64,000 nt of DNA, from contig NZ_CP067099.1 of assembly GCF_016618195.1 (NCBI RefSeq), forward strand, positions 2,108,001 to 2,172,000, in the 5' to 3' direction. Shown piece after piece: positions 58,396 to 60,491 of this stretch. The stretch is from Providencia manganoxydans. Lineage in GTDB: Bacteria; Pseudomonadota; Gammaproteobacteria; Enterobacterales; Enterobacteriaceae. Made by a program: the position numbers and the translations under genes. How positions within the stretch are numbered: the stretch's first letter is position 1; every line of letters begins with the position of its first letter. Under the pieces are notes generated by a model. That model was given only the letters and a program-made list of their open reading frames with translations, did no database searches and was not told where the DNA came from.

Positions 58396-60228
58396 ATGGC
58401 AAATAATGATTCTCATGACAGCATGAGCGTATCAGCAAGCCCCGATAGTGATGACAACAATGGAAGAGGAACAGGTCCAGAAGGGCGAGGGGATTCGGGG
58501 GGGAGTCGTGGCAGCTCTCACTCACGTTCTGTAAATTTTAGCCAAACACCTGAAAAACAAGCCATTATTAACCCACTTATTCTACTCCCTGTCACCATTG
58601 CTGTAGTGGAAGGAACATGGGGTGTCACAGTAAGTGCCGTTCGTTCTACACCTACACCATTAGCTCAATTGGTTGCAAAGGTGATTAATTCAGCACCAAT
58701 AGCTGCTCGAGCTGTAGGATTTACGATTTCTGCAATTTATCCCACCCCCGTTGCGCCAGACAATATTGACCCTTATTTTGCAGAACATCAGCGACAGTTA
58801 GCCGATATTGTTGCTAGACAAAATTTGCAGGACAAAACCTATAGTGTGACAGCGCTTCCTGCAAGCCTTGTGACGGATACTCCAATTAGTTCAATAGCTC
58901 AATTACAGGAAGTTACAGCAAAGGTCATTGCTGAGCCTGTTATTGATCCAGTAACAGAACAGAAAGTCACTGCATTGACTAAAACCGACCGTAAAGTTTC
59001 TGTCGTTAAAGCGACAAGAACTCGCCGTACGAGCGTTTATTCTGTTGCTGCTGTTCCTAATCAACCACCATTGCAAGTCTATGTTGATATGAGGGAACCT
59101 AGAGGATTAGCCAGCTCCCCTGCTATTATTGAAAGTGCGTTGCCTGTTTCACTATTACCTAGCCCTGTAGCGCAAACGACCCACCATATCGTTGATTTTG
59201 GTGATGAGCATGCGCCAATTTATCTTTCCATCTCTAAACAAAATACATCTCAGCAACTAGCGCTCGAAGTTGAAGAAGCCAAAAGGCGCGATGAGGAGTT
59301 TTTAGACACTCATCCCATCGAAGCCGCAGAACGAGAGCTGGCAGCAGCACAAAGCCAGCTCTCTTCGGCAAGAGCTAATTTAGGGTTACGTCAACGACAA
59401 TTACAGGCATTACAGAATACCTCCGAAGCGTTAGCTTTTACCGATCCACAGCGACATCCGTTAGAAATTCGTTTTGATGATTGGATCAGTGGATTAGGTT
59501 CAAGTTATCGTGACGGCAGCGTGTTGTTGCATCTCAATGCGATTATTGATTCGCCGACAAATTTAGCTTTTTTAATGCAGCATGGTGCTACTCGTTATGT
59601 TGCAGACGTTTTAGAGGTTAATAATATTGAAGCTCCCACGGAAGGGGGACGACGTGTAGCGCTAGCTGTACGTGATAAGCTGATTGAGCTGTATGATGAG
59701 CTGCACCAACGTTTTCTGCGTTCAATAAAACTTATTGATGATGCTGAAAAAATATTGGCGCTTGCGGAAGCTGAAGTCAAAGACGCGGAAGATAAAACCG
59801 CGGCAGCAGAAGATAAAGTTGCTAAGGAAAATAAGCGCAGAGAAGAAGGAACAGTTACTGGAAATGGAGAGGCGGTTGGCGAACAGTGGCTAGAAGATGC
59901 AAATAAAGGTAATGGTGTTCCAATCCCAGAACAGATCGCTGAAAAACTACGCGGGAAAAAATTTAAAACCTTTGATAAGTTTAGAAAAGCATTTTGGGAA
60001 GAGGTGTCGAAAGATCCTGAGTTATTTGATCAGTTTTGTGATGCGAATAAGGGCAATATAAAAAAAGGTAAAGCTCCAGTTCCTGTTGAAGAGGAACAGG
60101 TTGGCGGGCGAGTCAAATTTGAGTTACACCATGAAGAGCCGATAGCTCAGGGAGGAGAAGTATATGGTATAGATAATTTACGGGTTGTAACGCCAAAAAG
60201 ACATATTGGAATTCATAAAAAAGGATAA
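58396..60228 (+). CDS. Colicin E-type DNase bacteriocin
   Basis: The protein has 610 residues without a signal peptide. Residues 1-50 are disordered and Gly/Ser/Asp-rich. A hydrophobic stretch (about 58-75) and an S-pyocin/colicin-like translocation region follow, then charged Ala-rich helices (about 290-350 and 430-490) typical of a receptor-binding coiled coil. The C-terminal ~134 residues closely follow the colicin E9/E2 DNase: VGEQWLEDA, IPEQIAEKLR, FWEEVSKDPEL, and the HNH metal site with Arg572, His578, His579, Asn594, His603 and His607, spaced as in E9. It should kill related cells by chromosomal cleavage. The N-terminal two thirds look unlike colicin E9, so receptor and import route are probably different. 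No lysis gene follows. Confidence 0.92.
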   Translation: MANNDSHDSMSVSASPDSDDNNGRGTGPEGRGDSGGSRGSSHSRSVNFSQTPEKQAIINPLILLPVTIAVVEGTWGVTVSAVRSTPTPLAQLVAKVINSAPIAARAVGFTISAIYPTPVAPDNIDPYFAEHQRQLADIVARQNLQDKTYSVTALPASLVTDTPISSIAQLQEVTAKVIAEPVIDPVTEQKVTALTKTDRKVSVVKATRTRRTSVYSVAAVPNQPPLQVYVDMREPRGLASSPAIIESALPVSLLPSPVAQTTHHIVDFGDEHAPIYLSISKQNTSQQLALEVEEAKRRDEEFLDTHPIEAAERELAAAQSQLSSARANLGLRQRQLQALQNTSEALAFTDPQRHPLEIRFDDWISGLGSSYRDGSVLLHLNAIIDSPTNLAFLMQHGATRYVADVLEVNNIEAPTEGGRRVALAVRDKLIELYDELHQRFLRSIKLIDDAEKILALAEAEVKDAEDKTAAAEDKVAKENKRREEGTVTGNGEAVGEQWLEDANKGNGVPIPEQIAEKLRGKKFKTFDKFRKAFWEEVSKDPELFDQFCDANKGNIKKGKAPVPVEEEQVGGRVKFELHHEEPIAQGGEVYGIDNLRVVTPKRHIGIHKKG

Positions 60229-60491
60229 TGAAGGTAATGAAAAATAGTATTAGTGATTATACAGAAGCAGAGTTTATTATTTTTGTCCGAAAATTATTTA
60301 ATGTTGAGAATACAACGGAAGAAGAGGATATCGCTACTCTTCTTGAATTTAAAAGGCTTAGTGAACATCCCTCTGGCTCCGATTTGATTTATTACCCAAA
60401 TAAAAATAGGCCAGATACCCCTGAAGGGGTTGTTCAAGAAGTGAAAGAATGGCGAGCGCAGCAAGGGAAACCAGGTTTTAAAGTAGGTTAA
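60228..60491 (+). CDS. DNase bacteriocin immunity protein (Im9 family)
   Basis: The protein has 87 residues. Its ATG overlaps the toxin stop (TAATG). It matches the colicin DNase immunity fold: SISDYTEAEFIIFVRKL for helix I, a variable helix II (TTEEEDIATLLEFKRL) that sets specificity, and the conserved EHPSGSDLIYYP of helix III, whose paired Tyr residues contact the DNase. The C-terminus GKPGFKVG is typical. It protects the producer by binding the cognate DNase domain. Confidence 0.95.
   Translation: MKVMKNSISDYTEAEFIIFVRKLFNVENTTEEEDIATLLEFKRLSEHPSGSDLIYYPNKNRPDTPEGVVQEVKEWRAQQGKPGFKVG

Follow-up and report, generated by a model that had tools for sequence, protein, structure and literature searches.

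The 64,000-nucleotide stretch of the Providencia manganoxydans genome analyzed here (the window; assembly GCF_016618195.1, contig NZ_CP067099.1, positions 2,108,001 to 2,172,000 of the forward strand) encodes, between yeaC and pncA, a DNase bacteriocin candidate and its immunity protein. By sequence, the toxin is a novel combination of known modules, each of putative function: an entry tail with a TonB-box-like motif, a translocation domain (T-domain) of the E-colicin type, a receptor-binding domain (R-domain) of the colicin Ia type, and an HNH DNase. We consider it probable that the pair is a chromosomal DNase bacteriocin with its immunity gene, likely SOS induced, whose import is of the TonB type by way of Ia-type docking. 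Most interesting is what the relatives of this toxin suggest, namely, a natural exchange of TonB-type and TolB-type tails within one protein family. The features, in positions of the window, are as follows.

58346..58361, no strand assigned: LexA (SOS) operator-like site CTGTTTCGATAAACAG; the start codon of the toxin follows at 34 bp
58396..60228, + strand: DNase bacteriocin (toxin) gene, 610 amino acids, from open reading frame, domain, and alignment searches
58396..58461, + strand: entry tail, residues 1-22, with TonB-box-like DSMSV at residues 8-12 (58417-58431)
58468..59301, + strand: E-colicin-type translocation domain PF03515 (Cloacin), residues 25-302 (Pfam E 5.1e-27)
59293..59820, + strand: colicin Ia-type receptor-binding domain with flanking helices, residues ~300-475; the core matching 2hdi_B is residues 340-444
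59848..60219, + strand: HNH DNase domain PF21431, residues 485-608 (Pfam E 2.1e-52; catalytic residues)
60228..60491, + strand: Im2/Im9-type immunity gene, 87 amino acids (PF01320, E 3.6e-34; alternative start ATG at 60237)
60508..60534, both strands: terminator-like hairpin between the immunity gene and convergent pncA, from the consensus scan only

Toxin modules and immunity gene

Toxin residues 478-608 align to positions 2-132 of the colicin E9 DNase, with His578, His579, Asn594, His603, and His607 falling on E9 positions 102, 103, 118, 127, and 131, and with Arg481 and Glu576 kept at positions 5 and 100 in the same alignment; these E9 positions are the ones that we take to have active-site roles. 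The toxin stop and the immunity start overlap as TAATG, and the solved structure closest to the immunity protein is Im2 (2no8, E 3.1e-32), with Im9 (1e0h) at E 4.2e-26. A PF21431 domain with its catalytic residues and an adjoining PF01320 gene, each found once in the whole genome, place the pair with the HNH DNase bacteriocins (colicins E2, E7, E8, and E9 and pyocin S2), and the toxin ends in PF21431 rather than in the pore-forming C terminus of colicin Ia. The toxin-immunity pair is real and apparently intact, and since the genome is a single contig of 4.34 Mb, the toxin gene is chromosomal. The initial annotation, made from the letters alone, had proposed these coordinates, the frame, the overlap, the active-site residues at E9 spacing, the Im-type neighbor, and a chromosomal rather than plasmid location; open reading frames, PF21431, PF01320, the E9 alignment, and the single-contig assembly bear all of this out. 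Its statement that the first ~470 residues do not look like colicin E9 was mistaken in part, because profile search places the same PF03515 domain as that of the E-type group A colicins at residues 25-302. A second E9-alignable stretch spans residues 27-341, and E9 likeness is faint in single-sequence comparison.

The proposal of a mosaic toxin with its own receptor and import route thus held in part: the R-domain and tail appear unlike those of E9, but the T-domain is of the E-colicin type and the R-domain is of the known colicin Ia type. When R-domains were compared in isolation, colicin Ia gave the best alignment (~21% identity), assigning this part of the toxin to the colicin Ia family; PF11504 was not among the profile matches of the window toxin. 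In the structure model, predicted local distance difference test (pLDDT) values averaged by ten-residue block are about 77-94 for residues 311-480, and confidence is low at residues 1-58 and 81-145. This assignment would put an Ia-type receptor domain outside the pore-forming colicins.

The tail lacks the DGSGW-type TolB epitope of group A E-type colicins. Tails were surveyed in 62 collected proteins (P0001-P0062, with many near-identical E. coli copies; P0010 and P0011 are 100% identical over the searched R region) by the patterns [DE][ST][MILFV]xV (TonB type) and D[GA][ST]GW (TolB type). The former occurred in 7/62 (P0001-P0004, P0007, P0009, and P0062), in each as DSMSV or DSMTV at residue 8, the latter in 45/62, both in 0/62, and neither in 10/62. 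Of these ten, P0014, P0017, P0019, and P0020 start inside the epitope or past it, P0058-P0061 carry D[HN]SGW, and P0013 and P0047 have another tail. DSM[ST]V is kept although the T-domains are down to 41% identical (window toxin versus P0003). Within the first 45 residues, D-x-M-x-V occurs in just one of the 49 window open frames of at least 120 amino acids, the toxin itself; read by eye, it also stands near the N terminus of 6 of the 13 Plug-domain transporters of the same genome (as DKMIV, DEMVV, DVMMV, DVMTV, DVMTV, and DEMTV). According to a review, every TonB-dependent transporter and every colicin imported by TonB has a TonB box, which in FhuA lies at residues 7-11 (PMC11658791, excerpt). 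Farther afield, a locus from another genus of the family (L094) has MNDDTITV as its tail, together with an Ia-like R region and a C terminus that is E5 type by eye. In a nuclease-colicin-like protein with an Ia-like R region (L063, G561, minus strand), the tail is of a third type that lacks both a TonB box and DGSGW.

Proposed import route

The gene pair, the identities of the domains, the catalytic residues, the motif in the tail, and the operator-like site come from the sequence or the structure model; the receptor, TonB dependence, the FtsH step, SOS induction, and killing are inferred. The Ia-type domain (residues ~300-475) would bind a Cir/IreA-like TonB-dependent transporter on a related cell; the tail would thread through a TonB-dependent transporter and present its own TonB box (residues 8-12) to TonB, so that the toxin is pulled in, rather than by way of TolB and OmpF as with colicin E9; FtsH and the E-type T-domain would then deliver the DNase to the cytoplasm, where DNA would be cut; and the Im-type protein would shield the producer. 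For group B colicins, one transporter typically serves as both receptor and translocator (PMC12927319, excerpt), and FtsH is required by nuclease colicins, Tol or Ton dependent alike (PMC6455109, excerpt).

The genome itself has 13 Plug-domain matches and four TonB_C matches, and BtuB is present (L048). In an NCBIfam scan of 7 of the 13 Plug-domain proteins, L047 matched the IreA family best, below the cut-off of that model, and L049 matched PRK13513, above its cut-off. Solved structures were compared for these two only, and the nearest in each case was the colicin I receptor (E 7.2e-111 for L047 and 2.9e-109 for L049); both fall below the CirA cut-off, and both sequences are incomplete at the locus end.

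A TonB-driven route on which receptor and translocator differ is an unlikely alternative, though not a negligible one. Here, the docking site of the Ia-type domain would be one transporter, in the Cir group or outside it, and the tail would enter by a porin or by TolC, the way that klebicins E and C do. Klebicin E uses OmpC and Ton (PMC10906532, excerpt) and klebicin C uses TolC with a TonB box at residues 16-20 (PMC8324772, excerpt), so a TonB-box tail need not pass through a TonB-dependent transporter; moreover, a laboratory chimera of colicin Ia with the E3 R-domain needed BtuB, yet Cir and TonB too (PMC6455109, excerpt), and receptor and translocator can therefore be separate. What argues against this route is that colicin Ia, which gave the best alignment to the window toxin among isolated R-domains, has a TonB-dependent transporter as its receptor, and that the model has no KlebC-like long hairpin before the T-domain, although residues 1-58 and 81-145 are of low confidence there.

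Apparent exchange of tails, receptor domains, and nucleases among relatives

P0001-P0009 and P0062 belong to the same gene family at full length, with no tested function named in the source records (P0005, P0008, P0009, and P0062 were classed as Providencia from sequence), and they vary: their tails are of the TonB or the TolB type, and neither the R-domain nor the nuclease is constant. P0004, with a TonB tail, and P0006, with a TolB tail, share 80% identity in the translocation domain and 94% in the DNase, compared with 31% in the tail and 24% in the R-domain. Between P0004 and P0009, identity is 80% in the T-domain and 84% in the R-domain and falls to 11% in the head (DNase versus colicin E5 type). 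P0008 has a TolB tail and a T-domain 83% identical to that of P0004, and because a single continuous E9 match spans its residues 12-582, it looks like a classical BtuB-type colicin. Since the window T-domain is only 41-47% identical to those of its Providencia relatives, P0001 and P0002 excepted, the clean exchange is visible among the relatives and not against the window toxin.

In a midpoint-rooted T-domain tree (local supports of 0.920, 0.946, and 0.985 on the relevant branches), the TolB-tailed P0005, P0006, P0008, and L036 nest inside the TonB-tailed Providencia-type proteins, which suggests a TonB-to-TolB tail change inside Providencia. E. coli plasmid colicins carry the same R type with TolB tails and with DNase, E5-type, or E3-type heads; the Ia-type R module was present in 8/5426 E. 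coli genomes, in 10 places, all on plasmids. Of the 22 differences between the window toxin and P0001, 20 are in DNase residues 544-610, so that the docking domain is alike and the head surface differs, as would be expected if immunity specificity changes; the 35 differences from P0002 (94% identical, labeled P. stuartii) are spread, with 9 in residues 1-300, 18 in residues 301-478, and 8 beyond.

Entry routes thus look exchangeable in this toxin family. We give even weight for and against a broader reading, in which Ton/Tol switching occurs naturally by swapping a ~20-residue tail and a receptor domain on a common translocation-nuclease chassis, the Ia-type domain being a traveling module that would serve under either energy system, whether the head is a DNase, a tRNase, or an rRNase. 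The accepted division of colicins is into group A (Tol) and group B (Ton), yet natural proteins with T-domains ~80% identical appear on opposite sides of that divide, differing in tail and R-domain. Receptor and energy-source predictions would follow for Providencia proteins and E. coli plasmid colicins recorded only as "colicin-like bacteriocin tRNase domain-containing protein." Separately, an Arsenophonus nasoniae plasmid relative (L038, 1140-2949) is annotated as two adjoining open reading frames and is perhaps a split gene.

The yeaC-pncA interval and distribution in Providencia

The comparison covered 24 Providencia genomes, one per species and including that of P. manganoxydans. All 24 have yeaC, and in 18/24 yeaC and pncA are adjacent (gap of ~250 bp or less). 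G013 has ~0.9 kb of other sequence between the two, and in G004, G015, and G018 other genes occupy the interval (the 7 kb fetched from G004 and from G018 showed no pncA). Because these four other genomes hold other sequence there, the interval is variable. Placement of the pair between yeaC and pncA, as first annotated, stands, and to say that it interrupts a gene order otherwise like that of E. coli is reasonable across most of the genus. Beside yeaC in L042 (G018) and L043 (G015), a cluster resembling a TonB-dependent receptor with an iron-siderophore ATP-binding cassette transporter was seen by eye, in G015 between yeaC and pncA.

The intact pair occupies the interval only in P. manganoxydans and so is not fixed at this locus. 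G021 has a toxin relic there (L044, about 1295-1995), with an alignment that runs unbroken from yeaC across the upstream region to base 81 of the gene, after which just one piece, matching 58941-59020, aligns. Toxin homologues were found in 5/24 genomes: intact in P. manganoxydans, G007 (P. heimbachae), and G010, broken in G004 (P. burhodogranariea), and as fragments in G006. Those of G006, G007, and G010 lie far from yeaC on the same contig, that of G007 between MFS (major facilitator superfamily) transporter-like and MgtE-like genes (by eye), and that of G004 is on another contig. By eye, P. heimbachae and P. burhodogranariea each have a second, unpaired Im-like open reading frame after the toxin-immunity pair (L035 8162-8425, L036 8201-8464).

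Regulation and release

CTGT-N8-ACAG is the core of the enterobacterial LexA operator. It precedes the start by 34 bp in the window, by 40 bp in both L035 and L036, and by 38 bp in L004, and is thus present in 4/4 Providencia toxin loci with a located start (the G006 fragments have no located start). The background is 5 such sites in 123,006 bp of comparison sequence, three of the four included, or ~0.006 per 140 bp. Among six non-Providencia loci, the same core precedes L095 and L097, none precedes L094, and a looser CTG-N10-CAG precedes L063, L037, and L039. The window site lies within a palindrome (58340-58367; 12-bp arms with one mismatch, followed by T-rich sequence), by eye a possible hairpin near the mRNA start; this palindrome is not in the terminator-scan output. 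That scan, over 58000-60600, gave 6 terminator-like sites against 1.8 expected.

The initial annotation had also noted no lysis gene, and PF02402 indeed had no match in the whole genome, nor in 14 control genomes, with the positive control recovered in the E. coli plasmid relative (E 3.7e-22). Where a group A operon would have its lysis gene, the gene after the immunity gene is pncA, in the opposite direction.

That the pair is decaying or silent is quite improbable. The G021 relic, the broken and fragmentary homologues in G004 and G006, and a consensus scan that found no sigma-70-like promoter before the toxin are in its favor. Against it, the open reading frame, catalytic residues, and immunity gene are intact, a Shine-Dalgarno-like sequence (by eye) and the operator-like site precede the toxin, and the concentration of P0001 differences in the DNase head is what selection or recombination acting on immunity specificity would give, rather than decay; the differences from P0002 are spread.

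Comparison with known systems

In open-licence literature, judged by titles and the openings of abstracts, there was no Providencia nuclease bacteriocin with a TonB box and no Ia-type R-domain in nuclease colicins; much subscription literature is outside this scope, and absence is thereby unproven. A 2017 survey of nuclease bacteriocins contains neither the word Providencia nor the phrase colicin Ia; in the excerpt consulted, Ia stands only among toxins without the DPY motif, and E-type colicins are BtuB and TolB users.

Like colicins E9 and E2 of group A, the window toxin has a PF03515 domain, a PF21431 DNase, and an Im-type immunity gene; it differs from them in lacking a DGSGW-type epitope, in an R-domain that looks Ia type rather than BtuB type, in having no lysis gene found, and in being chromosomal. 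That it is nonetheless an ordinary group A colicin, entering with an E9-type translocation domain by TolB and a porin and with DSMSV present by chance, is the least probable reading, highly doubtful despite the E-type T-domain and the E-type TolB epitope of its Providencia relatives P0005, P0006, P0008, and L036, given a tail without that epitope and a DSM[ST]V kept between proteins with such divergent T-domains. With colicin Ia, a pore former whose receptor is Cir and which depends on TonB, it shares the fold of the receptor-binding domain and the proposed TonB-type entry, and it differs in its translocation domain, in a DNase in place of the pore-forming domain, and in the low identity of the R-domain.

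Ton-dependent nuclease bacteriocins as such are already known; colicin D is one. Klebicin C and pyocins S2 and G, in the portions of their descriptions consulted, are further precedents for a TonB-imported nuclease, but the receptor parts of KlebC (a hairpin on TolC) and pyocin S2 (which binds FpvAI) differ from that of the window toxin. Also close are WP_042021075 (P0010) and its relatives, Col156-type plasmid colicins of E. coli, which likewise combine an E-type T-domain, an Ia-type R-domain, and a nuclease, and which, unlike the window toxin, have a TolB-type tail, a plasmid location, and a lysis gene.
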